From positions 1 to 50,478 of the forward strand of contig CAJAWW010000019.1 of NCBI GenBank assembly GCA_903946745.1: a stretch of DNA of 50,478 nucleotides, read 5' to 3'. The notes under the pieces were generated by a model. The model made no database searches. It saw only the letters and a list, made by a program, of their open reading frames with translations, and was not told where the DNA came from. Made by a program: the position numbers and the translations under genes. The stretch comes from an uncultured beta proteobacterium (GTDB taxonomy: Bacteria > Pseudomonadota > Gammaproteobacteria > Burkholderiales > Rhodocyclaceae). The stretch's first letter is position 1. The number at the start of each line of letters is the position of its first letter. Shown here piece after piece: positions 8,730 through 50,189 of the stretch.

Positions 8730-10196
8730 TCAATCAATATGATAATTAGGCGCTTCTTTCGTAATTTGCACATCATGGACATGCGATTCACGAATGCCGG
8801 CTGAGGTGATTTCGACAAACTCAGCGCGTGCGCGCATTTCGTCGATGGTCGCGCAACCCACATACCCCATCGAGGAACGCAGTCCACCCATTAACTGATG
8901 AATAACGGCTGTGACCGACCCTTTGTAAGGAACGCGGCCTTCAATGCCTTCTGGCACCAGTTTCTCGACGTTGGCATCGGAATCCTGAAAATATCGATCA
9001 GCTGCTCCGTCTTTCATCGCACCCAGGCTGCCCATGCCGCGATAGGATTTGTAGGAGCGCCCCTGATATAAAACGGTCTCCCCCGGAGCCTCTTCCGTAC
9101 CGGCGAACAGGCCACCTAGCATGACGCAGTTGGCACCCGCGGCAATGGCCTTGGAGATATCGCCCGAGTAGCGGATGCCGCCATCAGCAATCAATGGCAC
9201 GCCACAACTCGCCAGCGCATTCGCAACCATGTCGATGGCTGTGATCTGCGGCACTCCGACGCCGGCGACAATCCGCGTGGTGCAAATCGAGCCGGGGCCA
9301 ATGCCCACCTTCACGCCATCGGCACCATGGTCAACCAGTGCCATCGCCGCCGCTGCTGTGGCGATGTTGCCGCCAATGACATCGACCTGCGGAAAGTTCT
9401 TTTTGACCCATTGCACACGCTTTAATACACCTTCCGAGTGACCATGCGCTGTGTCGACAACGATCACATCAACACCTGCTTCGGCCAGTAATGCGGCGCG
9501 CTCTTCGGTGCCTTCGCCTACGCCGATGGCAGCACCGACACGCAAATGCCCCTGATCGTCCTTGGCCGCCAGCGGGTGTTCTGATGATTTGAGAATATCT
9601 TTTACAGTCATCAGGCCGCGCAACTCAAAGTCATCATTGACGACCAGTACGCGTTCAAGGCGATTTTTGTGCATGAGCTCTTTGGCTTCTTCAGGGCTCG
9701 CACCTTCTTTAACCGTGATTAAACGCTCGCGCGGCGTCATGATATTGCCGACCTTCTCATCGAGCCGGGTTTCAAAGCGTAAATCACGGTTGGTAACAAT
9801 GCCCACCACTTTCCGGCCTTCAACGACTGGCAGGCCGGAAATCCGGTGCATCCGGGTGAGGCTGAGCACCTCGCGCACAGTCATGGTCGGCGGGATAACA
9901 ATGGGGTCTTTGAGCACACCGGATTCAAACCGTTTGACCTTGGCGACCTCAGCGGCCTGATCTTTAGGCGTGAGGTTTTTATGCACGATACCAATGCCGC
10001 CTTCCTGTGCCAGCGCGATGGCAAGACGAGCTTCGGTTACCGTATCCATGGCGGCAGAGGCCAGAGGGATGTTGACTGCAATGTTGCGGGTCAGGCGGGT
10101 CGTTAACTGGACGTCACGGGGCAAAATCGCCGAGTGAGCGGGAACCAGGAGGACGTCATCAAACGTCAGCGCCTTCTGGAGGATTCGCATAGTCAT
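8730..10196 (-). CDS. guaB: Inosine-5'-monophosphate dehydrogenase
   Basis: Oxidises IMP to XMP with NAD+, the committed step to GMP. The 488 residues match the family. The N-terminal part of the barrel ([13 protein letters not shown]) is followed by two CBS domains (about residues 95-205), then the catalytic half with [17 protein letters not shown] carrying the nucleophilic cysteine, and the flap region [10 protein letters not shown]. Start at 10196 or at the second Met (10190). It precedes guaA on the same strand with the terminator at 8679-8712 in between. Confidence 0.97.
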
Positions 10197-10298
10197 TTCC
10201 TTGGAGCCAACAAAAAGACATTATACGCGAGCCTGCTATTGGTGCTTCTGGCACTGATGTCACGGAGTGAGATACGCGCTAGCATGCACCAGCGCGTA

Positions 10299-10631
10299 TC
10301 AAGCGCTGTCTTGTTCGCTGCCACCTTTTTTCATGGCCTTGCCTTCGGCCGCGCGTTGTTTGCGAACTTCCTTTGGATCGGCAATCAGCGGGCGATAGAT
10401 TTCCACCCGATCGCGATCGCGCAATATCGAGTCAAGTTTGCTCAGCTTGGCAAAAACCCCCACCTTGTTGCGGGTCAGGTCAATCTCGGGATGTTTTTCA
10501 AGTAAACCTGAGGCCTCGATCGCCTGTTGCACGGTGCTACCCGCAGCCAAATTCAGCGTTGCACGATCTTGCCGTGGCGCAAGCGCGTAGATCACTTCGA
10601 TCTGTATTGAAGCTTGAGTTGCATCAGCCAT
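10299..10631 (-). CDS. rnfH: RnfH family protein (UPF0125)
   Basis: A 110-residue ubiquitin-like (beta-grasp) protein of the RnfH family, with the conserved [14 protein letters not shown] at the start and [17 protein letters not shown] near the end. The start at 10631 overlaps the ratA stop by 8 bases; an in-frame ATG at 10664 would lie deeper inside ratA. RnfH and RatA are paired in many proteobacteria, but the molecular role of RnfH is not settled. The tail beyond PKEVRKQRA is Lys/Ser-rich and variable. Confidence 0.88.
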
Positions 10632-11055
10632 AAACTTTTTGTGCGCGTTTGACGAAAGATTCAACGAATGTGTCAGCGATGTGATTGAACACCGGGCCGA
10701 GCACTTTCTCCAGCAACCGGCCAGAAAATTCGTAGTGCAAGCGGAATTCTATCTTGCAGGCGCTATCGCCGAGCGGAATGAATGCCCAGCGGCCGTCCAT
10801 GTGCTTGAACGGGCCGTCAGTCAGACGAATTTCCATCAAGGCCGGGTATTGCTTGGTGTTGATCGTCGAAAAGTGCGATTTGATTCCGTGATAACTGATC
10901 CGGATCGTCGCGACCGTGCGCGTTTCGGTGCGTTCCTGACACTCGGTGCCGCCACACCATGGAAGAAACAGCGGGTAGTCTTCGACCCGATCAACGAGAT
11001 CGAACATCTGCGCTGGAGTTCGCTCGATAAGTATCAGTTTTTCGACCAGAGCCAT
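10624..11055 (-). CDS. ratA: RatA/Coq10-type START-domain protein
   Basis: A 143-residue protein of the START-like (Coq10) family. The start [19 protein letters not shown] and the pattern [11 protein letters not shown] are typical. E. coli RatA was described as an inhibitor of 70S assembly, while mitochondrial Coq10 binds ubiquinone; the sequence cannot decide between them. It overlaps rnfH and is divergent from smpB, leaving about 50 bp for both promoters. This arrangement is common in betaproteobacteria. Confidence 0.9.
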
Positions 11056-11103
11056 AGTCTTGATGCGGGGTAAAATGTGCCTATTATTTTAGCGCGTCAC
11101 GCC

Positions 11104-11553
11104 ATGAGCATCACCGACAACAAGAAGGCATTCCACGATTACTTCATCGAAGATCGCTACGAGGCGGGACTGGTCCTCGAAGGATGGGAAGTGAAGGCGA
11201 TCCGCGCCGGTCGTGCGCAGATCAAGGAAGCATACGTTGTACTCAAAAATGGCGCGGTATTCTTGATCGGTGCCCATATCACCCCGTTGCTGTCGGCATC
11301 CAGCCATGTACTCCCGGACCCGGTGCGTACCCGCAAGCTGCTATTGCATACTGCGGAAATCAACAAGCTGATCGGCAAGGTGGAGCGCGCCGGCTTTACA
11401 TTGGTGCCGCTCGATTTGCATTTCAGCAAGAGCAGAGTCAAACTTTCCATCGGCTTGGCCAAGGGAAAAAAACAGCACGACAAGCGTGACGCCGAGAAAG
11501 ACCGCGAGTGGGTACGCGAAAAAACGCGCCTGCTACATGACAAGCGTGCATAA
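11104..11553 (+). CDS. smpB: SsrA-binding protein SmpB
   Basis: The tmRNA-binding protein required for trans-translation and rescue of stalled ribosomes. Starting at ATG 11104 ([14 protein letters not shown]) it has 149 residues; a GTG nine codons upstream is also in frame. The OB-fold core ([20 protein letters not shown], then GAHITPL) and the basic C-terminal tail ([20 protein letters not shown]) are complete. No tmRNA gene lies in the window. Confidence 0.96.
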
Positions 11554-11567
11554 ACGGAATTCGTGAA

Positions 11568-11888
11568 TTATTCGCGGCGTGGTGGTCGATCCGGGTACAA
11601 CTCGCGCCCGGCCTGTCGCACATCGCTTCGCAACTGGCGCCGTTCCTCGGGAGACATGCGGCCGCGCTCTTTTGACGCATCGGATGCATCGCCAGCAAGT
11701 GACTGTGACCGTTCTGGCGCAGTCTGGCGCTCCGTTTTTCGCTCTACCCGATCCGTGCGAGCGTCTCTCACTCTGTCCGCCATGCGCCCACGATGTCCGC
11801 CTTGCGCCATTGTGGCGGCCGATAACAGCGTCAAACCGCAGGCCACGCCCACACAAAGCCACCTGCTGAATTTAATCCGTTTGTTCAC
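11568..11888 (-). CDS. Small exported Arg/Glu-rich protein
   Basis: A 106-residue protein beginning at GTG 11888, chosen because a Shine-Dalgarno (ACGGAG) lies eight bases upstream and because it yields a clean signal peptide (KRIKFSRWLCVGVACGLTLL, cleavage probably near TMA-QG). The mature part is highly charged (many RDAR and ERK stretches) and ends with MSPEERRQLRSDVRQAGREL. Such SPEERRQLR-like motifs occur in small betaproteobacterial periplasmic proteins and recall Spy/CpxP-like helical chaperones, but the resemblance is weak. It follows the 44-codon exported peptide and is convergent with smpB. Confidence 0.65.
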   Translation of the reverse strand: MNKRIKFSRWLCVGVACGLTLLSAATMAQGGHRGRMADRVRDARTDRVERKTERQTAPERSQSLAGDASDASKERGRMSPEERRQLRSDVRQAGRELYPDRPPRRE

Positions 11889-38108: not shown

Positions 38109-38258
38109 ATGCGCAATCAGAGGGTGTGGCGTCAATTTGTCATCCGTATGTCATTTAAGCGACCGCGTGAAACGACCTGTATCACCTGTATCCGTTGTAT
38201 CAGTTGTCGCCAAACTCAGCGTTTCGGTTTTCACTATAGTCAATTGTGCTCCCGGTAA
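38109..38258 (+). CDS. Short Cys-rich upstream reading frame overlapping bcsA
   Basis: ATG 38109 has AGGAG eight bases upstream; an in-frame ATG at 38082 is also possible. The 49-residue product includes RETTCITCIRCISCRQTQRF, with four cysteines in a C-x2-C-x2-C-x2-C pattern made by TGTATC repeats. Its stop (38256-38258) lies beyond the bcsA GTG start (38246), so ribosomes finishing it would sit on the bcsA start, which itself lacks a ribosome binding site. It may be a leader peptide that controls bcsA by coupling. It could also be a chance frame. Confidence 0.4.
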   Translation: MRNQRVWRQFVIRMSFKRPRETTCITCIRCISCRQTQRFGFHYSQLCSR

Positions 38259-40486
38259 TCGCTCCGCCTCCTTCGCTCCTTGATCGTTGGCAAACGCCGA
38301 CGCTAATCATCATTTTTGTGGGGCTTCTGGTCTATCTTGATCGGTTTTCTACCAGTTATCTGGGGCATTTTCACCAAATGGTCATCGGGTGGGGGGCGCT
38401 TGGGATTCTGTATGTAATGTATTTTTTTCGCAAATCGCGTTCGATGCCTTTGCGAATGACGTTTATCTTGATCTCTGCGTTTCTGGCTTTTCGCTACATG
38501 TACTGGCGATCCACTGAAAGCTTGATGTACACCGGGCCGGCTGACTTTATCGGTATGACGGCTCTGTATCTGGCGGAGCTATATGCCTTTGTGATTCATT
38601 TTCTCGGCATGTTGCTGAATGCTTGGCCGCTCAAGCAGCCGCAGATTGATCCCCCGGTCGATCAGAGCACATGGCCGACGGTTGATATTTTCATTCCGAC
38701 CTACAATGAGTCTGATGACATTATTCGCGTCACGACGATTGCCGCGATGCAGATGGACTATCCCAAGGATAAGTTTCATGTGCATATTCTTGATGACGGC
38801 GGAACTATGGCCAAGCGGCAACACTCGGAAAACGGCATGTCGGCGTGGGAGCGTCACTACCGGTTGCGACGGATGGCTGAAGGTCTCGGTGCGCGCTACA
38901 TCACGCGGCCGCTGAATCTCCAGGCCAAGGCGGGCAATGTGAATCATGCCCTGAAGCATACCGATGGCGATCTGGTTTTGATTCTTGACTGCGATCATAT
39001 TCCTACGCGCGATATGCTCAGGCGCACGATTGGGTTTTTCATGGCTGATCCGAAACTCTTTCTGGTGCAAACTCCGCACTTTTTTATTAACCCGACTCCG
39101 GTTGAAAAAAACCTTGGCGGAATATCAAACCCGCCTGGTGAGAACGACATGTTTTATCGTGTCATTCACCCAGGTCTGGATTTCTGGGGTGCCAGCTACT
39201 TCTGTGGGTCCGCGGCCATGCTACGGCGCACCCACGTCATGGAAAACGGTGGGTTGAGCGGGAAAACCATTACCGAGGATGCTGAAACCGCCTTTGCGTT
39301 GCACGGGCGTGGCTATCGAAGCGTTTATTTTGAACGGCCGATGGTGTGCGGCCTGTCGCCGGAAAGCTATGACGACTATGTGATTCAGCGGCAGCGATGG
39401 GCGCAAGGCATGTTGCAGATGTTTCTGTTGAGCAACCCGCTGTTCACCAAGGGGCTCACGTTGGCGCAGCGTGTTTGTTATTTCAACTCATGCTTTTTCT
39501 GGTTTTTCGGCATTGTTCGCTTCATCTATTTCATTGCGCCGGCGACATTCCTGCTCTTTGGGCTGCAGATCTATGCCGCATCGTGGTTGCAGATTCTCGC
39601 GTTTGTGTTGCCTTATGTGCTCAGTGGCTGGATCGTGATGGACTTTTTTTATTCGCGGGCGCGGCAGCCATTTTTTTCAGAGGTGTATGAAAGCGTGCAG
39701 TCGATGTTCCTGATGCCCGCAGTGCTGTCTGTATTTATTAATCCAACCAAGCCAACCTTCAAGGTGACGCCCAAGGGGCAGATGCTGGAGCGCGAGTCGT
39801 TGAATCCGATGTCTGTATCGTTTTTGCTGGTGATCGCGATTAACTTACTGGCGCTGTCAATGGCAATTTACAAGTGGTTCGACTATCCCATGTTGCGGGA
39901 TGTGATCGCGGTAACGGCGGTGTGGTCACTGTATAACCTGTTTCTTGCGCTGGTATCGTTGGGTGCGTTCTGGGAGCGCAAGCAGATTCGCAATCATCAT
40001 CGGATCGGTTCGGATGGGGTGATCAGCGTGACAGTGCCGCGTTTGCGTGAGACGTTTGACGGTGAAATTATGGATGTGTCACTGAAAGGCATCGGCTTTA
40101 AGATTAAAACCGATGCAGTGTTCCAGTCGATGGAACGCGTCACGCTAGATGTCTGTGATAGCGACGGCCACACCTATCAGTTTGATGCACGACTGCAGCG
40201 CGTTGCGGCGAATGGCGGGGATATATTCTGCGGCTCTGAATTCATGCACGCGGATCCCTGTGACCCGCAGGCGATTCGATTCGTGTTTGGTGACAGCGAT
40301 CGCTGGATGCGACTCTGGATGCGCAAGCAGGAAATGAAGGGCACGTTCAGGAATTTGTTGCACTTTATTGGTCTTGGCATGCGGGGGATGAAAGGTAGTG
40401 GGCAGATGCTGGTCGATCGTGTGCTTTATCTGTACCGCATGATTGTTTCCGCGCTGCGTCGCTACGCAGCGACGTATCTCCGCTAA
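38246..40486 (+). CDS. bcsA: Cellulose synthase catalytic subunit BcsA
   Basis: A 746-residue inner-membrane processive glycosyltransferase that makes beta-1,4-glucan from UDP-glucose. TMs precede the GT2 domain (about 145-395), whose motifs are all intact: D183/D184 in ILDDGG, D248-C-D250 in LILDCDHIPT, T343-E-D345 in KTITEDAET, and QRQRW (381-385). After more TMs a PilZ domain follows, with RNHHR (582-586) and DVSLKG (610-615), so it should be activated by c-di-GMP. The N-terminus lacks the extra region of enterobacterial BcsA. Only GTG 38246 (or ATT before it) can start the frame; no Shine-Dalgarno is visible. Confidence 0.95.
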   Translation: MLPVIAPPPSLLDRWQTPTLIIIFVGLLVYLDRFSTSYLGHFHQMVIGWGALGILYVMYFFRKSRSMPLRMTFILISAFLAFRYMYWRSTESLMYTGPADFIGMTALYLAELYAFVIHFLGMLLNAWPLKQPQIDPPVDQSTWPTVDIFIPTYNESDDIIRVTTIAAMQMDYPKDKFHVHILDDGGTMAKRQHSENGMSAWERHYRLRRMAEGLGARYITRPLNLQAKAGNVNHALKHTDGDLVLILDCDHIPTRDMLRRTIGFFMADPKLFLVQTPHFFINPTPVEKNLGGISNPPGENDMFYRVIHPGLDFWGASYFCGSAAMLRRTHVMENGGLSGKTITEDAETAFALHGRGYRSVYFERPMVCGLSPESYDDYVIQRQRWAQGMLQMFLLSNPLFTKGLTLAQRVCYFNSCFFWFFGIVRFIYFIAPATFLLFGLQIYAASWLQILAFVLPYVLSGWIVMDFFYSRARQPFFSEVYESVQSMFLMPAVLSVFINPTKPTFKVTPKGQMLERESLNPMSVSFLLVIAINLLALSMAIYKWFDYPMLRDVIAVTAVWSLYNLFLALVSLGAFWERKQIRNHHRIGSDGVISVTVPRLRETFDGEIMDVSLKGIGFKIKTDAVFQSMERVTLDVCDSDGHTYQFDARLQRVAANGGDIFCGSEFMHADPCDPQAIRFVFGDSDRWMRLWMRKQEMKGTFRNLLHFIGLGMRGMKGSGQMLVDRVLYLYRMIVSALRRYAATYLR

Positions 40487-40540
40487 TTCCGGCTGATTCA
40501 GTCGCACGCAGGTGATGCTGCTTTGCTATTATTCGGATCC

Positions 40541-42712
40541 ATGAAACGCGTGCGGATGTTGTTCCTGCTGATCGCTGCTCTTTTGCCAGCGCTGGCAGGT
40601 GCCGTTGTCACTGAATTTCCACTGACCCGGTTTTTGCCATTCCCCAGTCTGGAATTGCGCTGTGTGGCAGACGAACAGACGATCGAGGTGCCTGTTCCGT
40701 TGCGTTGGAATATTCGCAGTGTGAAGTTGAAGCTTTATTACGCCGTTTCCACTGCGCTGCTGGCCAAAACCTCAAATCTGCTCATCAAGGTGAATGGCAC
40801 ACCCGTCATGCAGACAAAGCTGGTCTCCATCTCTGCGGACGATCCGCTATCGGTCGTCATTCCGGTAGGACTGTTTAAGCCGGGCTACAACAAGCTCACA
40901 TTTGCTGTGTCGCAGCATTATTCCGACAAGGAGTGCGAGTTACCGTGTTCGTCGTCGTTGTGGACCAGTATCAAGATTCCTCTCTCCACGTTGACATTTG
41001 ACTACGAAATGCGCGCGGTGCCGCGGCAACTTTCGAGTGTCAGTGAATACATTTTCGACCCTAAACTGGCTACCGATAACCGGGTTCATCTGGCATTCAA
41101 CACCACCGATGATCAGGTCGCAAGTCTGGCCGCAGTTGCGGCTTCCGGCGTGGCGCGACGTTTTGATTACCGCAAGGTCACCTTTAGCGTTTCCGATATT
41201 CTGGAGTATGGGCGCGACAACGTTGTGATCGGAACGGATGCTTTTGTGCGGCCCCTGTTGGGCAATGCCCTTCCGCCCGCGACGGATGAAAAAGGTGGGC
41301 TGCTCAAAATTCTGCCCATGCGGCGTAGTGATGGAACCATTGACGAGCAGCACGCCCTGATTGTCGTGACTGGCAAGACCATGGAAGAGGTCAAACTGGC
41401 AGCCATGACGCTGGCCAATATTTCGCTTGCCTATCCTGGCTCTGATGAACTGCGTGCGGTGGGTTTTTCGTTGCCGGAAATTTCTGCGTATGGCGGTCGC
41501 AACATTATTTCTTCGGACAAAGTGTATAGCTTCAAGACGCTTGACGCGCCGACCCGAACAATGGCGGGTTTGAATGCACAGGCCATACGCATAAATTTCC
41601 GTTTGCCGGCCGACTTTCTCATCAAGCAGAACCGTACGGTGGAATTGATATTGAATTTTGCCTATGGCGCCGGCATGCGCCCCGATTCTGCGTTGAATGT
41701 CATTGTCAACGATCAGGCGGTGCGCGCCATCCCGCTACAGAATCCGGAAGGCGGTTTTTTTGAGAAGTACAAACTGGACATTCCTACTTATGTGTTCCGG
41801 CCAGGTGACAATTCGATTACCTTTTCACCGGAGTTGCACGTTGCTGGCCGCGAATGCGATGTGGTCCAGCCGGGCAACCTGTTTTTCACGCTGTTCGATA
41901 ACTCGACATTCAAGTTCCCCTACATGCCGCACTTCATCGACATGCCTCGGCTTGAACTATTCATGTTGAACGGATTCCCGTTTACCCGCTGGCCGGATGG
42001 TTTTGAAGGTTCGATCTACATTACGAGGCCGTCTGTCGATTCACTGAGTGCAGCGATGAATCTGGTTGGCCTGATGACGCAAAAGAACGGATTCCCGCTG
42101 CTGAACATGGCGCTGACCTATAAGCCCCCGAGCAATTCCACCGGAGACCTGATTGTGATCGGTGATGTATTCAGTGTGCCGAAAGAGCTTGCAGTTGCAT
42201 CGCCGCTACAGGTGGGGAAAACTGCAAGAATTCCCTATCCCATCATCCGTAGTTGGCAAATGGAAACGAATTTTGCCTTCAGTGACCAAGTCAGCCGCAT
42301 GGGCAGTAATCGCGGATTGATGATGGAATTTGAATCACCGTTCCAGGCGGGTCGCAGTGCGCTGCTGTTCGCCGCGGACGAGCAGGCTGATTTGGTGCGC
42401 TTGTCGGAGCAGTTGCTGGATCCGGAGATCCAGAGCCAGATCAACGGCGACCTGATTATTTTTGAATTTCTCGACCCGAAGACCAAGGTCACGGCATTGT
42501 CGGTCGGTAAACGTTACACGACCGGAAAGCAAGGCAAGGTGGATTGGATCGATACGGGTATGGATCGACTCGATTCTTTGTTGTACGCGAACAAGGCGGT
42601 GTTTTACGGCTTGCTCGTAGTCGCGCTGGCCGGGTTGAGTTGGGTACTGTTTGTGGCTATCCGTCGTTATCGGATTCGCCGGCTTAAAACGGTGGCTGGG
42701 AAGGGCGACTGA
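40541..42712 (+). CDS. bcsB: Cellulose synthase periplasmic subunit BcsB
   Basis: A 723-residue partner of BcsA that guides the glucan through the periplasm and anchors by a C-terminal helix. Signal peptide (MKRVRMLFLLIAALLPALAG), then the repeated carbohydrate-binding and flavodoxin-like domains (KLYYAVSTALLAKTSNLLIK, SLWTSIKIPLSTLTFDYEMR, LELFMLNGFPFTRWPDGFEG), and a final TM helix (AVFYGLLVVALAGLSWVLFV) with a basic tail. Start at ATG 40541; a TTG at 40523 is in frame but would precede the signal peptide. It follows bcsA by 54 bases. Confidence 0.94.
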   Translation: MKRVRMLFLLIAALLPALAGAVVTEFPLTRFLPFPSLELRCVADEQTIEVPVPLRWNIRSVKLKLYYAVSTALLAKTSNLLIKVNGTPVMQTKLVSISADDPLSVVIPVGLFKPGYNKLTFAVSQHYSDKECELPCSSSLWTSIKIPLSTLTFDYEMRAVPRQLSSVSEYIFDPKLATDNRVHLAFNTTDDQVASLAAVAASGVARRFDYRKVTFSVSDILEYGRDNVVIGTDAFVRPLLGNALPPATDEKGGLLKILPMRRSDGTIDEQHALIVVTGKTMEEVKLAAMTLANISLAYPGSDELRAVGFSLPEISAYGGRNIISSDKVYSFKTLDAPTRTMAGLNAQAIRINFRLPADFLIKQNRTVELILNFAYGAGMRPDSALNVIVNDQAVRAIPLQNPEGGFFEKYKLDIPTYVFRPGDNSITFSPELHVAGRECDVVQPGNLFFTLFDNSTFKFPYMPHFIDMPRLELFMLNGFPFTRWPDGFEGSIYITRPSVDSLSAAMNLVGLMTQKNGFPLLNMALTYKPPSNSTGDLIVIGDVFSVPKELAVASPLQVGKTARIPYPIIRSWQMETNFAFSDQVSRMGSNRGLMMEFESPFQAGRSALLFAADEQADLVRLSEQLLDPEIQSQINGDLIIFEFLDPKTKVTALSVGKRYTTGKQGKVDWIDTGMDRLDSLLYANKAVFYGLLVVALAGLSWVLFVAIRRYRIRRLKTVAGKGD

Positions 42713-43614: not shown

Positions 43615-45276
43615 TCAACGTGCGTATCTTACACCTTGGGATTCGTTAACAACCTGATAATCGGCCCATGCACCGTTGCCCTGCTTCAGTCGGTAGCGGT
43701 CGCCAATACCGACGATCAGGGTTTCCGCGTTATGTGCGACAAACGGCGTGGTCGGCAGATCACGGCTGTAGTCGGCTGGGGAAAATACGGGAAGCTCGAA
43801 TGGGGAGCGGGCAATTAGCCGGGCGATGATTTCTGACAAGGCGAGGTAGCTCGTCGGATCGTTGACGCGTACCGTGTCACCTTCCCGAAGCGACTGCGGA
43901 CCTATGACCTTGATGCCCACGGGAACCAGCGTGATCGCCGGGCTCGGAATTTCCCGCAGACCGGCGAATTGCATCTTGTCCCCGCGCACGGCGGCGCCGT
44001 GCTCCGGAATTATCGCCACCACGGCGCGGCGCCCGGATTTTTCGATATCCGTCAGAAAACCGTCGATATCGTCGAGCAGCTTTTTCAGACGCGTGCGATA
44101 GGTGTCCATACTGTTTTCGGTGCGCGGTGCGCCGACTAGGCGATTACCGTCATGCAGGCTGATGCTGTTGTAATAGACGGCGGCCCGGCTTTTTGAGGCG
44201 TCTCCACGCGAGGCCATCCAGCGCCGCAAAACATCCATGTCGTCATAGATCGGTGAGCCGTCAAACGAATACATCGCAATCTTGGCACCCTCCAGTGGCA
44301 TGGGGGCTTCGCGCATGCCACCCTGGGTCTGTATGGTCTTGAGGAAATCATCAAAATGGCCGTCGTGATTCAGCACCATGGCCGGCTTAAATCCGGCCTG
44401 ATTCAAGCTTTCCATCAGGTAGCAGTTGGCACGGATGGGATTGTACAAGTCGTCATGTGCCTGCTGGCCGCAGGCGGCGCGCTGGAGACGGATTGCCGCC
44501 GGTCCGCTATACGATGCGGCGCTGTTGAACCGCGTGAGAAGAATGTCGAAACGCCGAAAAAGCGGGTGCCCATCCAGTTCCATGGCGCGCAGATCGTCCC
44601 ACGACAGTGAGCAGATATGCATGAATATGACGTCGAATGGCGTGTCGGTGGCAGCAACTGGCTTAAAGGCGACGGTGCGCTTTGCTTCGTCGGTAAAGAA
44701 TTTGCGCAGATACTGCTCGGGATCGACGTTGCCGACCGATGCGATACCCGTACTAGTAGCCGTGCCATCGGCCGTGGTCGGGTGGGGCTGGGCGGGCGTG
44801 GACGATGGTGTTCCGACGCTCATGGTAATCAGCGCAACCAGCACAAATGCCGTCAGCCGCAGCCATTTTTCAAGCAGCAGATAAATAACGACGACGACGA
44901 CGAGCAGGGATACCGCCGATATGCTGACAAACCGTCCGCCGAGTTCCAGCAGGTAGGTCAGACTGAAATTTGCAACAACGTTAGCCTGTGACAGTGCGCG
45001 TGAGAGCGGGGGCAGCCAGGAGTCGTAATAAAGCAGAGCGATGGCTGCGGGCCACGCGGCGATGGCACGGCCGCGTTGTAACTTGGGCGATTTGAGCGGC
45101 ACCAGCAGCAGCAGGGCAAATGCCAGATTCTCAAGCGGATGTAGGCCGATCAGTTCCTTCCAGTACAGCGCAAATTTGCCGAGGAAGTACAGATTCCAGC
45201 CGCCAAGGTCTGAAATTACGTCCAGGGGCGGACGCCGGATCTCCGATGGCGTTGGATTCTGGTCGGTAACGGGCAT
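43615..45276 (-). CDS. bcsG: Cellulose phosphoethanolamine transferase BcsG
   Basis: A 553-residue membrane enzyme that adds phosphoethanolamine to cellulose. Several N-terminal TMs (about 45-155), a linker, and a periplasmic alkaline-phosphatase-fold domain. Zinc ligands C222 in MHICSLSWDD and E425/H426 in IIPEHGAAVRG are present, as is the nucleophile Ser in NSAASYSGPAAIRLQRA (S255 or S257). With this gene the polymer is probably pEtN-cellulose. BcsE and BcsF partners are not seen in the window. Divergent from the BcsA-like/BcsB fusion with 132 bp between. Confidence 0.93.
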   Translation of the reverse strand: MPVTDQNPTPSEIRRPPLDVISDLGGWNLYFLGKFALYWKELIGLHPLENLAFALLLLVPLKSPKLQRGRAIAAWPAAIALLYYDSWLPPLSRALSQANVVANFSLTYLLELGGRFVSISAVSLLVVVVVIYLLLEKWLRLTAFVLVALITMSVGTPSSTPAQPHPTTADGTATSTGIASVGNVDPEQYLRKFFTDEAKRTVAFKPVAATDTPFDVIFMHICSLSWDDLRAMELDGHPLFRRFDILLTRFNSAASYSGPAAIRLQRAACGQQAHDDLYNPIRANCYLMESLNQAGFKPAMVLNHDGHFDDFLKTIQTQGGMREAPMPLEGAKIAMYSFDGSPIYDDMDVLRRWMASRGDASKSRAAVYYNSISLHDGNRLVGAPRTENSMDTYRTRLKKLLDDIDGFLTDIEKSGRRAVVAIIPEHGAAVRGDKMQFAGLREIPSPAITLVPVGIKVIGPQSLREGDTVRVNDPTSYLALSEIIARLIARSPFELPVFSPADYSRDLPTTPFVAHNAETLIVGIGDRYRLKQGNGAWADYQVVNESQGVRYAR

Positions 45277-45408
45277 ATTGAACGGGCGGGCAGCAGCTGT
45301 TTATGCTGATTATTATCCCCAATCTGGTGCTGACGTGTCAGAATTTATCTGTATGGGTGCCTGTCTTTTTTTTGCGCGCGCTGAGTGTTCAACTGGCCGG
45401 TAAGTTTC
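45277..45408. promoter_or_regulatory. Divergent intergenic region between bcsG and the fusion gene
   Basis: This 132-bp gap must hold both promoters. It contains CTGAC-GT-GTCAG (45331-45342), a short inverted repeat of unknown meaning, and a T-rich run before the fusion start. No clear -35/-10 pair was recognised. Confidence 0.3.
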
Positions 45409-48400
45409 ATGCTTCGTTTGCTTGCATATCGTGTTTTTCAGGCGTTGCTGCGGACTTTTTCGCCGAAAATTCCGCAATCGTGGCACGCTGACCAACAGAT
45501 GTTGCTTTCCATTATTACTTTCGTGCTGTCGCTTATTTTTCGGGCAACGCCGACAGAAATACGCGATGCCGCCACCGATTGGCGACGACGTTGTGCGCCG
45601 TACTTTTGTCATATCGACCTGAATAATCTGGGTCGTGCCGATTGGGTGAGGATTCCTCTGCAGGGAATGGCGCTGCTTGTTCTGCGTCCCAGATACGGTG
45701 ATCGTGGTGCCGGGATGATGGCGTTCATTACGAATGTTGAGCATCGGTTGGTCGGAGTGCTTGTCGGTATCGCCCGGCGCATTGATCGCGGCTGGGCGCA
45801 GTGTCGACTGCATGCGGAATGGTCGTGGAAACCATCACCATCGATGGGCGACAGGCTGATCGATAGTCCAGTTTTTAGCAGCCCGGCACGCCGATGGGCG
45901 ATGATGGGTTTGGGTGGCGTGTCTCTTCTGTTTGCTGCATCGGTTCCCATGAGTCCCGCAGCGCAGGCAATATTCGGTGCTTTCGTGCTGGCGTCGGTCG
46001 TCATGGGGTGTCGTGTTGCGCATCCGCTTGGCCGAACATCGATTGCGCTGCTGACCCTGCTGTTGGGGGTGCGCTACTTTAGTTGGCGAATCGGTGCAAC
46101 GCTCCCGGCCACTGGACAGATTGACCTGACGCTCGGGGTTTTGCTACTGCTGGCAGAACTGGTGCTCTGGTATCCCGGCTTTGTCATGCTGACCGGGTTT
46201 TGTTTTAGCCCGTCGCGGTTGTTAGCCGCCCGTGAAAGCGCTGTCGCACTGCTGCGCAGCATGGCGTGGCTGGTGGTCTGTAGCCTGCCTGCCGTGGCCG
46301 CGATTTCAGGTCGCATCATCATTGACGCGACGTTTGCTGAGTATCTGATCTACGTTTTGCCGTATCTGCTTGGCGGCGAACTGGTTGCCGGAATGGTGCG
46401 ACCGAGTGTGCGCGTCTGGCAGCAGCGCGAGTCCGAGCTGGCGACTCTGTCGCAATCACTGTGCCGTCGTCCGTTCACCGGTTTTTTGCTGAGTCTGGCC
46501 TGGCTGAATGCTGCCGCCCTGTTGTTGCTTGTGGTGCAGAGTCTCGGGGGGGCAGAAAGTGCTGACGGGTTCCAGTCGATAACCTGCGCCTGGGTTGCGG
46601 TGATGTTTCTCATGCTGGTGATGGCCGTTGGATTTGAGCGCGCGCCCGCGGCACAATTTGAAACATTTTCCGGAATCACGTTTGCATTGGCGGGAGGCTT
46701 CCGGTACATGGTCATTTGTCTCGTGACCATCGCTCGCACGGCAACCGGTTCGCTATTTCGTCCGATGGCGCGTTTTGAGCATTGGCTGCCGCGCCGCCCG
46801 GTGTTTGCGTCGTTGCCCTTGATGGCCTGCTTGTTTTTGTTGATCGGAGCCATTCCTGCACAGGTTAATGCGGCTAGGAAGTCCTCCGTAGATGCCATCG
46901 CTGTGGTGGGCGATGACGATGCCAACAAGGTGCGGCGCACTTCACTGAGAGAACTCAGTGGATTCAATACGCTGTCGTTACGCAATACCGATGGAAGTGC
47001 CTCGGCGTATTTTGGGTCGCGTGCCGATGAGCTGATTACGCGCTTGACGTTGGTGATTCGTTATAGCCATTCCCCTGCATTACTGCCCAAGGATTCTCAC
47101 ATCAAGGTGCTGTTGAACGATGAGGTCATTGGCATCATGCCGGTCGATAGCGGTGGGGAAGGGCGGCCGCGGACGAGCACCTTTGAGGTTGATCCGCGTT
47201 TCGTTGCCGACAACAATCACCTCAAGTTTCAGCTTGTCGGCCACTATGCGCAGAGTTGCGAAGACCCGCTGCGTACCAGTTTATGGGCGAGCATCAGCGG
47301 CACTAGTGAAGTTGTGACGGAATACACGGAACTTGCGATCAACAATGATCTTTCCGTATTGCCCGAGCCATTTTTCGACCGGCGTGATCTCAGGCAAATC
47401 ACGGTGCCGATGGTTTTTTCTTCGCAACCAGCGTTGCCGACCGTGAATGCCGCAGGGGTGGTGGCTTCCTGGTTCGGGAAACTCGCTGGAGAGCGTGGTG
47501 CGCGATTCCCGGCCAATACCAATGTAGTTCCACCCGGGCATGGATTGGTGGTTGCCACCAATTCGGATCGCCCCGATTTTCTTCGTGGTCATCCGCGCGT
47601 TGATGGGCCAACGATCGAGATCATGACTAATCCGACCGATGGGCGATCGAAGTTGCTGCTGATTCTTGGCCGTGATGGCAATGACATCATGCTGGCCGCG
47701 CAATCCCTTGCTTTGGGGCATGTCGCAATGACCGGCGGGACGGTAACGATACGTTCGCGTCGCGATAGCGCAGCGCGGCAGCCCTACGATGCGCCAAACT
47801 GGGTGCGCAGTGACCGGCCGACAAGGTTTGCCGAGATTTCGGCCTACCCCCAGCAGTTGCAGGCCAGCGGTCATGCGCCGCCACCGCTCAAGCTCGACTT
47901 GAAAATTCCGCCTGACATCTTCAGCATTGGCGGACGTGGTGTGCCGGTGAGGTTGCGCTACCGCCATAGTCCGCCTGCGCGTGCTGGCGAGTCTTTGCTG
48001 AATGTCAGTGTCAACGGGCAGTTGGTACAGTCGTTGGCACTGACCGCTGGCGCAGGAAACGAAGCGAAGCGGTTTGTGCCGGGCGACAATGCCTTGTCTG
48101 GCGAAGAGCGTAACTTGCGCCTGCCGCTGCACAAATTGCGTGGCGGCAATCAGATGCAGTTTGCATTTGCGTTCGCGCGGGTGCAGGAGGGCGCATGTCC
48201 GGATATTCCGCCGGACGAAGCCCGACGTGCCCTGATCGATCCGGATTCAACGGTGGATCTTTCCAGTTTTTACCATTTTGCGCGCATGCCGAATCTGAAT
48301 CATTTTGCCAGCGTCGGTTTTCCCTTTACCAAGTACGCAGACCTTTCGGAGACCGTGCTGGTTCTGCCGGATCATCCGAAACCGCAGGAGATTGAAGCTG

Positions 48401-49044
48401 CGATGAATTTGCTAGGCTACCTGAGCCGGTCTACGGGCGTGGCCGCAAGCCGCATCCGGATTGCTGGCCCGGGCGAGGAGGCGGTGCTGGAAAATGCCGA
48501 TCTGCTCGTGGTGGGCTCGGCCATCGAGGAAGGTGTCTTCAAGCGCTGGGCCGACTATCTGCCGGCGACCTTGCATGGCGAAGTACGGCGCATCAGTCAC
48601 GCTGCGCGTGCTGAAAATGCGCTGTATGACTGGCTGGGTCTCGGTACGGAGGTTGATACCGAGGTTGTCTCGCAGGAGAAGCTGTCGGCGGAGGGTCCCT
48701 TGGCCATGCTGATGGGCTTTGAGTCGCCCTTCAGTCCGGGGCGCAGCGTTGTCGTTGTGACGGCTAGCGCACCCGACCAGTTGTGGATGGGCGTTGCGGC
48801 GCTGGGAAACCAAAAATTGTCTGATGCGATTCGGGGGAGTGTCAGTTTTGTCCGCGGCGAGCGCGTGGACAGTTTATTGGTGGGCAGCACCTATCTGTCG
48901 GGAGACCTTCCCTGGTGGGTACTGGTTTGGTTGCCGCTGTCGTATCACCCGATGCTGCTTGCGCTGTTGACGATAGCGGTTGTGATAATGCTGTCGCTAC
49001 TTTTCCGGCGTATGCGTTCCACCCAGGATGAGGGGCTGCCATGA
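45409..49044 (+). CDS. Fusion of a BcsA-like membrane scaffold lacking GT and PilZ domains with BcsB
   Basis: One intact 1211-residue frame (ATG 45409; an in-frame GTG at 45385 would add eight residues). The N-terminal half follows enterobacterial BcsA: an N-terminal region (LSLIFRATPTEIRDAATDWR), then TMs with LLGVRYFSWRIGATL and LLLLAELVLWYPGFVMLTGF. Where the glycosyltransferase should start, after about residue 263, the sequence passes in about ten residues to the TMs that follow the catalytic domain (LIYVLPYLLGG). No DDG, DCD, TED or QxxRW motif exists, and no PilZ RxxxR. From about residue 463 (RRPVFASLPLMACLFLLIGA, ending VNA-AR) an internal signal-peptide-like segment leads into a complete BcsB, ending in a TM (YHPMLLALLTIAVVIMLSLL). 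Catalysis is therefore not expected. Its stop overlaps bcsZ (ATGA). Confidence 0.85.
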   Translation: MLRLLAYRVFQALLRTFSPKIPQSWHADQQMLLSIITFVLSLIFRATPTEIRDAATDWRRRCAPYFCHIDLNNLGRADWVRIPLQGMALLVLRPRYGDRGAGMMAFITNVEHRLVGVLVGIARRIDRGWAQCRLHAEWSWKPSPSMGDRLIDSPVFSSPARRWAMMGLGGVSLLFAASVPMSPAAQAIFGAFVLASVVMGCRVAHPLGRTSIALLTLLLGVRYFSWRIGATLPATGQIDLTLGVLLLLAELVLWYPGFVMLTGFCFSPSRLLAARESAVALLRSMAWLVVCSLPAVAAISGRIIIDATFAEYLIYVLPYLLGGELVAGMVRPSVRVWQQRESELATLSQSLCRRPFTGFLLSLAWLNAAALLLLVVQSLGGAESADGFQSITCAWVAVMFLMLVMAVGFERAPAAQFETFSGITFALAGGFRYMVICLVTIARTATGSLFRPMARFEHWLPRRPVFASLPLMACLFLLIGAIPAQVNAARKSSVDAIAVVGDDDANKVRRTSLRELSGFNTLSLRNTDGSASAYFGSRADELITRLTLVIRYSHSPALLPKDSHIKVLLNDEVIGIMPVDSGGEGRPRTSTFEVDPRFVADNNHLKFQLVGHYAQSCEDPLRTSLWASISGTSEVVTEYTELAINNDLSVLPEPFFDRRDLRQITVPMVFSSQPALPTVNAAGVVASWFGKLAGERGARFPANTNVVPPGHGLVVATNSDRPDFLRGHPRVDGPTIEIMTNPTDGRSKLLLILGRDGNDIMLAAQSLALGHVAMTGGTVTIRSRRDSAARQPYDAPNWVRSDRPTRFAEISAYPQQLQASGHAPPPLKLDLKIPPDIFSIGGRGVPVRLRYRHSPPARAGESLLNVSVNGQLVQSLALTAGAGNEAKRFVPGDNALSGEERNLRLPLHKLRGGNQMQFAFAFARVQEGACPDIPPDEARRALIDPDSTVDLSSFYHFARMPNLNHFASVGFPFTKYADLSETVLVLPDHPKPQEIEAAMNLLGYLSRSTGVAASRIRIAGPGEEAVLENADLLVVGSAIEEGVFKRWADYLPATLHGEVRRISHAARAENALYDWLGLGTEVDTEVVSQEKLSAEGPLAMLMGFESPFSPGRSVVVVTASAPDQLWMGVAALGNQKLSDAIRGSVSFVRGERVDSLLVGSTYLSGDLPWWVLVWLPLSYHPMLLALLTIAVVIMLSLLFRRMRSTQDEGLP

Positions 49045-50189
49045 GACGGTTGATTCTTTTGTGTGTGCTGGTGTATTTCCATGCTGCTGGCCTTGCCCAT
49101 GGCGCTACCGATGCTTCAGCGACTGAGTGCCGCCCGTGGCCGGCCTGGGATGGCTTTCGGAAAATATTCATGAATGACGGAGGGCGCATCGTTGATCGTG
49201 GGTCAGTCAATTCCATTACGACCTCCGAAGGGCAGTCATACGGACTGTTTTTTGCACTCGTGGCAAATGACCGGGATAGTTTTGCGCGCATTTTGAAATG
49301 GACCGAGGAAAATCTTGCCGGCGGTGATCTGACTGCCCGGTTGCCCGGTTGGCAGTGGGGCAAGCGCAATGACGATACGTGGGGGCTCATCGATGACAAC
49401 GCGGCGTCGGATTCCGACCTTTGGATTGCGTACAGCCTGATTGAAGCCGGTCGATTGTGGAAAATGCCGCGCTATGCAGCCCTGGGTGAATTACTTGCGG
49501 CGCGTGTATTGCGCGAGGAGACCGAGGTGTTGCCAGAACTGGGGCGTACCCTGCTGCCCGGGCCGAAGGGTTTCAAACCTGAAAAATCCGTATGGCGATT
49601 GAACCCAAGCTATGTGCCGCCACCGTTGATGCAGCGACTGGCCGCCGTGTTCCCGCAAACCGAGTGGCGTCGTATGGTGGCACCGGCGGTTGATCTGATG
49701 GTGCGGTCGTCGCCGCGCGGTTTTGCGCCCGAGTGGATTCTGTACAAAGAAGGCGCGGGATTTTTAGTCGATCCCGAGACGCAAGGTGAGGGCAGCTTCA
49801 ACGCGATCCGTGTTTATCTTTGGAGTGGAATGCTGGCTGCCGATGATCCGCAGCGTGCCTTGCTGGCGAAACGCTATGCGGCGATGGTCGACTATATCGT
49901 CGCCAACGGTGCGCCACCGCTCAAGGTGGACACCCGTAGTGGAAGTGCAGAAGGTGTAGGAACGGTCGGTTTTTCAGCGGCGGTGTTGCCTTTGCTTGCC
50001 GCAGCAAATCAGAACAAGACGGCTGCGGATCAGCGCCTGCGGGTGATTGCACGCGGTACGCTGGAGCGTGACGACAATTATTACGATCAGGTGCTCACTC
50101 TTTTTGGTGTGGGCTGGATGGACGGTCACTATCGCTTCATGCGTAACGGCGCATTGCAACCCAATTGGACATGCGCCGCACCGCGCTGA
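49041..50189 (+). CDS. bcsZ: Cellulase BcsZ (glycoside hydrolase family 8)
   Basis: A 382-residue periplasmic endo-beta-1,4-glucanase, required in many bcs systems for proper cellulose export. Signal peptide (MRRLILLCVLVYFHAAGLAH), then the GH8 barrel with acid E63 in TTSEGQSYGLFFAL and the Asp-rich motif NAASDSDLWIAYSLIEAGRL that supplies the base. YYDQVLTLFGVGW near the end is also conserved. It overlaps the fusion gene by four bases and bcsC by 19, so the three genes are one operon. Confidence 0.95.
   Translation: MRRLILLCVLVYFHAAGLAHGATDASATECRPWPAWDGFRKIFMNDGGRIVDRGSVNSITTSEGQSYGLFFALVANDRDSFARILKWTEENLAGGDLTARLPGWQWGKRNDDTWGLIDDNAASDSDLWIAYSLIEAGRLWKMPRYAALGELLAARVLREETEVLPELGRTLLPGPKGFKPEKSVWRLNPSYVPPPLMQRLAAVFPQTEWRRMVAPAVDLMVRSSPRGFAPEWILYKEGAGFLVDPETQGEGSFNAIRVYLWSGMLAADDPQRALLAKRYAAMVDYIVANGAPPLKVDTRSGSAEGVGTVGFSAAVLPLLAAANQNKTAADQRLRVIARGTLERDDNYYDQVLTLFGVGWMDGHYRFMRNGALQPNWTCAAPR

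Follow-up and report, generated by a model that had tools for sequence, protein, structure and literature searches.

A BcsA-derived protein without catalytic and regulatory modules, fused to BcsB: a possible docking platform in a type II cellulose operon

In the window analyzed here, a stretch of DNA of 50,478 nucleotides, a single gene joins a BcsA-derived scaffold that appears to be non-catalytic to a full BcsB, alongside a complete catalytic bcsA-bcsB pair, an arrangement proposed in the initial annotation and supported by the present analysis. The parts that this “pseudo-BcsA-BcsB fusion” has retained and lost suggest that an old synthase has been turned into a docking platform serving another synthase that still works. 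The fusion had been supposed to anchor an extra BcsB or to hold the complex together; the non-catalytic scaffold stands, and its role is refined here to that of a probable platform for BcsG and BcsB. This role is the more specific because an E. coli-type NTD and its PRxP clasp are retained, because bcsG adjoins the fusion gene, and because the catalytic BcsA lacks an NTD, all of which the initial annotation had overlooked. The chances are about even that the protein is a non-catalytic platform holding BcsG and an extra BcsB beside an acquired synthase. It is a variant of a known cellulose secretion system and rests on one genome.

The reading frame runs from a GTG at 45385 (alternative start, ATG at 45409) to the stop at 49044, with 1219 codons, or the 1211 reported earlier when counted from the ATG, and no interruption. 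The claim that its first part is a TM scaffold derived from BcsA is borne out by profile searches. Residues 36-272 match positions 31-251 of NCBIfam PRK11498.1 (E. coli BcsA; E 7e-9), residues 172-262 match positions 12-102 of the BcsA model TIGR03030 (E 8e-10), and a profile made from 86 BcsAs, mostly type II, from loci around related BcsBs gives 61-68 bits over residues 37-272. Residues 273-490, whose order is collinear with the later membrane segments and C-tail of BcsA, score 16.2 bits with the same profile stripped of its GT2 and PilZ columns, the best of 199 shuffles preserving local composition reaching 10.0, and are therefore also likely to derive from BcsA. Sequence comparison thus indicates common descent with the BcsA NTD and TM region, strongly for residues 37-272 and weakly for residues 273-490.

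The second part is, as had been stated, a full BcsB. It covers the whole Pfam BcsB model (645 bits, residues 517-1125), matches the NCBIfam BcsB model (759 bits, residues 517-1211), and has the complete CBD-FD-CBD-FD ectodomain and C-terminal tail anchor of a type II BcsB. Structure prediction, which the initial annotation had recommended, gave a confident model for this half, with a Foldseek match to the E. coli crown BcsB 9fmt (E 2e-72, TM-score 0.89 by target), so that a BcsB of the crown type is predicted. The outcome for the N-terminal half was less decisive. For residues 1-505 the model is of low confidence (pLDDT 61) and scores best in the NTD (pLDDT 83-89 over residues 61-90), and a PDB sequence search with this half gave zero matches. 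The five top Foldseek matches of the model are all chains of E. coli BcsA solved within the cellulose secretion complex, BcsA-BcsG3 assemblies among them; as their E values of 0.15-1.0 are not significant alone and the alignment used for modeling included BcsA sequences, this result is suggestive at most. Between the two halves, residues 474-496 (FASLPLMACLFLLIGAIPAQVNA, followed by A) now form an internal hydrophobic segment that looks like a former BcsB signal peptide and may have originated as one, and the bond between VNA and A at this joint could be a processing site.

Neither GT2 nor PilZ has a Pfam match in the fusion, and a motif search of residues 1-500 recovered none of ILDDG, DCDH, TED, QxxRW, and DxSxxG, in agreement with the earlier report that both domains and the catalytic motifs are absent. 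The protein consequently lacks the GT2 motifs typical of a catalytic BcsA (DDG, DxD, TED, and QxxRW) as well as its regulatory elements, the PilZ c-di-GMP domain and the gating loop F.VT.K. The two losses originally counted must be raised to three, as this loop, which is found in 86 of 86 catalytic BcsAs as well as in the one encoded in the window, is gone from the fusion. The PilZ gap comprises about 110 residues upstream of the C-terminal tail, and the losses follow the limits of GT2, the gating loop, and PilZ. On these features, the BcsA half is expected to be non-catalytic. The argument that clean losses within an intact frame bespeak selection is not supported, however: the BcsB part follows in the same frame and holds it, and stops or frameshifts in the N-terminal half would therefore be eliminated even if only BcsB were under selection. 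The frame of that half could be kept open solely in this way, and the notion that an open frame proves selection was rejected.

How E. coli recruits BcsG gives the retained parts a candidate function. The E. coli BcsA NTD binds a BcsG trimer, whereas Rhodobacter-type BcsA has no NTD; a C-terminal SxxPRxP segment clasps helix 5 of the NTD, likely through R81-S850 and Q85-R854 bonds; the NTD by itself copurifies with BcsG; and NTD residues 1-149 together with C-tail residues 828-872, placed on Rhodobacter BcsA, suffice for BcsG recruitment (PMC11379886). The NTD-BcsG3 assembly has been independently shown (PMC11470070). Both sides of the clasp are retained in the pseudo-BcsA, in which VR89IPLQ93 and WLPRRP match E. 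coli R81/Q85 and SxxPRxP, the R and Q being near-invariant in the BcsA set (75/78 and 74/78). The position of Ser850 is occupied by His, and that of an NTD Trp (position 96), invariant across 27 compared rows, by Ala. Of the residues that at least 70% of BcsAs share, the pseudo-BcsA NTD retains 64%, within the normal range of the comparison set (n = 27; median 86%, lowest five 0.25-0.67), and TM1-4 retain 45%, below all 27 compared BcsAs (minimum 49%). The N-terminal half is 24-32% identical to its relatives, which share 37-55% over the same part, and has diverged beyond what the divergence of its BcsB would lead one to expect; this excess fits either relaxed constraint or an altered role.

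At the locus, a divergent bcsG is followed by the fusion, bcsZ, and bcsC (Table 1). Relatives such as L063 and L064 have bcsG, bcsE, bcsQ, a normal type II bcsA, bcsB, and bcsZ in the equivalent place, so that the fusion stands where a type II operon would have bcsA and bcsB. The bcsG gene, the bcsB-bcsZ-bcsC series, and the NTD-bearing BcsA of a type II (pEtN-cellulose) Bcs operon are all present, with the NTD on a non-catalytic protein that is also the sole NTD-bearing protein detected in the genome. Absent are the cytosolic BcsE and BcsQ of such operons: no BcsE was found in the window's genome, and its best BcsQ candidate scores at the level of a ParA paralogue (36 bits versus 140-171 in relatives). 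BcsG, BcsZ, and BcsC are retained in the genome, the remainder of bcsC probably opening contig C144, and no intact type II BcsA was found elsewhere in it.

Table 1. Features of the fusion gene and its surroundings (positions in the window unless a locus is named)
Feature	Position	Strand	Basis
Catalytic BcsA of another clade (GT2 motifs, gating loop, PilZ; no NTD, no PRxP)	38246..40486	+	model matches, motif search
BcsB partner of catalytic BcsA	40523..42712	+	domain match
Adenylate/guanylate cyclase-domain protein with C-terminal hydrophobic segment	42741..43595	-	domain match
bcsG, phosphoethanolamine transferase, divergent neighbor	43615..45276	-	domain matches, 642-659 bits
Pseudo-BcsA-BcsB fusion gene	45385..49044	+	ORF listing and domain matches
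E. coli-type BcsA NTD	45409..45834	+	profile/model matches, motif alignment; role from PMC11379886
NTD R89 and Q93 (E. coli Arg81/Gln85)	45649-45663	+	motif alignment
BcsA TM1-4 (residues 166-272), RYxxWR and LAE motifs retained	45880..46200	+	profile alignment; helices in model
Junction, ~275-residue GT2 domain missing (BcsA consensus ~256-530)	46198..46260	+	profile alignment, motif search
BcsA TM5-8 remnant (residues ~292-419), gating loop between TM6 and TM7 gone	46258..46641	+	weak homology, collinear
BcsA C-terminal amphipathic tail; PRRP (residues 469-472, 46789-46800) as PRxP clasp	46648..46803	+	profile alignment; motif role PMC11379886
Putative former BcsB signal peptide, now internal hydrophobic segment	46804..46872	+	hydropathy
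Full type II (E. coli-like) BcsB with C-terminal tail anchor	46933..49041	+	Pfam/NCBIfam, model versus 9fmt
bcsZ, GH8 endoglucanase, overlaps stop of fusion	49041..50189	+	domain matches
bcsC (TPR) 5' end, broken at contig end	50154..50478	+	
bcsG beside NTD-less BcsA	L154:13951-15564 and L155:2884-4452		

The genome's sole catalytic BcsA lies upstream in the window and has neither an E. coli-type NTD nor PRxP. The closest relatives of its BcsB partner are 42-46% identical and occur in G397, G167, G117, and others; in G117 the related pair adjoins a cyclase gene similar to that of the window. A nucleotide cyclase-domain gene accompanies this bcsA-bcsB clade (also L152:13358-14176, minus strand) and is perhaps a regulator. 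The catalytic-BcsA relatives at L152:10669-13389 (minus strand), L154:5059-8091, and L155:10562-13738 (minus strand) have lengths of 900-1060 residues and, apparently, a second C-terminal PilZ-like segment, model positions 549-689 being matched twice. In two genomes with relatives of this BcsA (G159 and G197; L154 and L155), bcsG stands beside an NTD-less BcsA, and no NTD could be detected in the rest of the genome. In these genomes BcsG must be recruited by means other than the NTD, and it may therefore not need one.

The proposed explanation is that the fusion represents the original bcsA-bcsB pair of the type II operon, whose genes would have fused while BcsA was pared down to a docking platform, catalysis being taken over by the NTD-less BcsA-BcsB pair of another clade. 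Beside that synthase, the pseudo-BcsA would hold BcsG through its NTD and its own BcsB through TM1-3, and nascent cellulose would receive phosphoethanolamine before the crown passes it on to the only BcsC. BcsA topology would predict eight inherited TM helices ahead of the former signal peptide, which would serve as a further membrane crossing that returns BcsB to the periplasm and may be cut, as in AcsAB of Gluconacetobacter hansenii, which is proteolytically processed into two chains (PMC4877109). In its fullest form this amounts to a two-synthase machine: a dead BcsA-BcsB would work in trans to dock BcsG and to provide a crown subunit for an NTD-less synthase that is its distant relative, and docking and polymerization, which a single BcsA polypeptide normally combines, would be split between two BcsA-derived proteins; this form is put forward tentatively, at somewhat less than an even chance.

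The retained parts would dock subunits still in the genome (BcsG and BcsB, with BcsZ and BcsC present), and the lost parts are those for catalysis, for c-di-GMP control, and for the site of the missing BcsE and BcsQ; the simplest reading is that the platform would serve the NTD-less synthase in trans. In E. coli, BcsR and BcsQ act on the GT-PilZ modules inside a vestibule held by BcsE and BcsF (PMC11470070). A docking platform is accordingly supported by the joint loss of BcsE and BcsQ, which serve the lost GT-PilZ part, while BcsG, BcsZ, and BcsC remain; by the clasp residues R89, Q93, and PRRP together with normal NTD retention; by the sole catalytic BcsA having neither NTD nor PRxP; by the published graft; and, to the limited extent noted, by the Foldseek matches. 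Against it are the single assembly without a second case, the occurrence of bcsG beside an NTD-less BcsA in G159 and G197, the substitutions at Ser850 and Trp 96, and the crowding to be expected in a crown of six BcsBs if each brought a pseudo-BcsA, which cutting of the fusion or a low number of copies would avoid.

The same observations bear on other explanations. The N-terminal half could be a relic, a BcsA made redundant by the arrival of the second synthase and now decaying, with selection acting only on the fused BcsB and the N-terminal half staying in frame for its translation. The excess divergence of that half, a TM retention lower than in any compared BcsA, and the failure of the scans to find a homologue with the same junctions all favor decay, yet it remains unlikely given an NTD that has eroded no more than is normal, a clasp kept on both sides, and losses that coincide with module boundaries. 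Still less likely is a generic anchor or crown extender, whose TM bundle would only tie the extra BcsB into the complex or nucleate the crown, while neither the NTD nor BcsG would play a part. The first BcsB tail anchor of E. coli does sit in the groove of BcsA TM1-3 (PMC11470070), the BcsB half is crown-type, and related operons have extra bcsB copies; however, a BcsB with its own tail anchor would need no TM bundle, and it is the NTD, not the TM groove, that has eroded least. An artifact, with a normal bcsA-bcsB locus misassembled or turned into an in-silico chimera, would be easier to entertain for an assembly as fragmented as this one (332 contigs, the window being one whole contig), with no second genome confirming the gene, but several precise in-frame losses and divergence across the whole N-terminal half are unlike misassembly, and with no intact type II BcsA elsewhere in the genome this explanation is very improbable.

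Comparison with known systems places the fusion among several partial parallels. It shares with E. coli type II BcsA (NF008558/PRK11498; BcsA-BcsG3-BcsB6, PDB 9fmz and 9b8v) an NTD, a TM bundle, and a PRxP tail in the same order, along with bcsG, bcsZ, and bcsC as neighbors, but differs in its three missing modules, in being joined to BcsB, and in a genome without BcsE or a recognizable BcsQ. As in the AcsAB/BcsAB fusions of Komagataeibacter and of L049 and L050, a BcsA-derived half precedes BcsB in one polypeptide, although those fusions retain the complete catalytic domain that the window's fusion lacks. Natural catalytic fusions of this kind, about 1505 residues long, occur in Burkholderiales at L049:1148-5662 (minus strand) and L050:5295-9821; no NTD is detectable in the L049/G072 fusion. 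The engineered Rhodobacter BcsA chimera (PMC11379886) combines two of the segments retained in the pseudo-BcsA, the NTD and the C-tail, but in the chimera the catalytic subunit itself carries the graft, whereas here it would act in trans from a separate, dead scaffold. Hylemonella and Noviherbaspirillum likewise have a second type II bcsB in the same gene cluster, beside bcsG (L065:74-2398, L066:2-2509, and L063:3-956, all minus strand), but it is not fused to a BcsA remnant, and BcsA there is catalytic.

If correct, the docking-platform explanation would make the fusion a natural separation-of-function experiment, dividing the parts of BcsA used for modifying and exporting the polymer from those used for making it. 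It would mirror the chimera engineered in work published in 2024, suggest a route by which a modified-cellulose operon could accept a foreign synthase, and provide the first pseudo-BcsA known to us, none being described in the literature searched.

The initial annotation would have counted a lack of homologues with the same two junctions against its reading, and none was found in GTDB scans, samples of the order, family, and class, or plasmids; in one sparsely sampled lineage, this absence is weak evidence against that reading. Two GTDB scans (about 85,000 species) gave no second pseudo-BcsA-BcsB, 399 + 399 genomes of the order and family no homologue with the same junctions, and GTDB contigs, relatives, plasmids, and viral contigs no homologue of the N-terminal half. 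The genomes covered included no other species of the genus, and a class-level profile search with the N-terminal part likewise gave no second pseudo-BcsA (18 loci, of which L183, L188, and L189 fell outside the motif check). Among the fetched loci, which include the 79 GTDB loci with the closest BcsBs, the set of four GT2 motifs is complete in 85 of 86 recovered BcsAs, and the remaining one, in L051, lacks only the Q..RW pattern; seven loci have no full BcsA, owing to contig ends or a bcsA elsewhere. Tandem type II BcsB copies are present in G385 (L048:7184-9346 and 9577-11721, minus strand), and in two lineages (L054 and L056) bcsA lies apart from bcsB, beyond bcsG.
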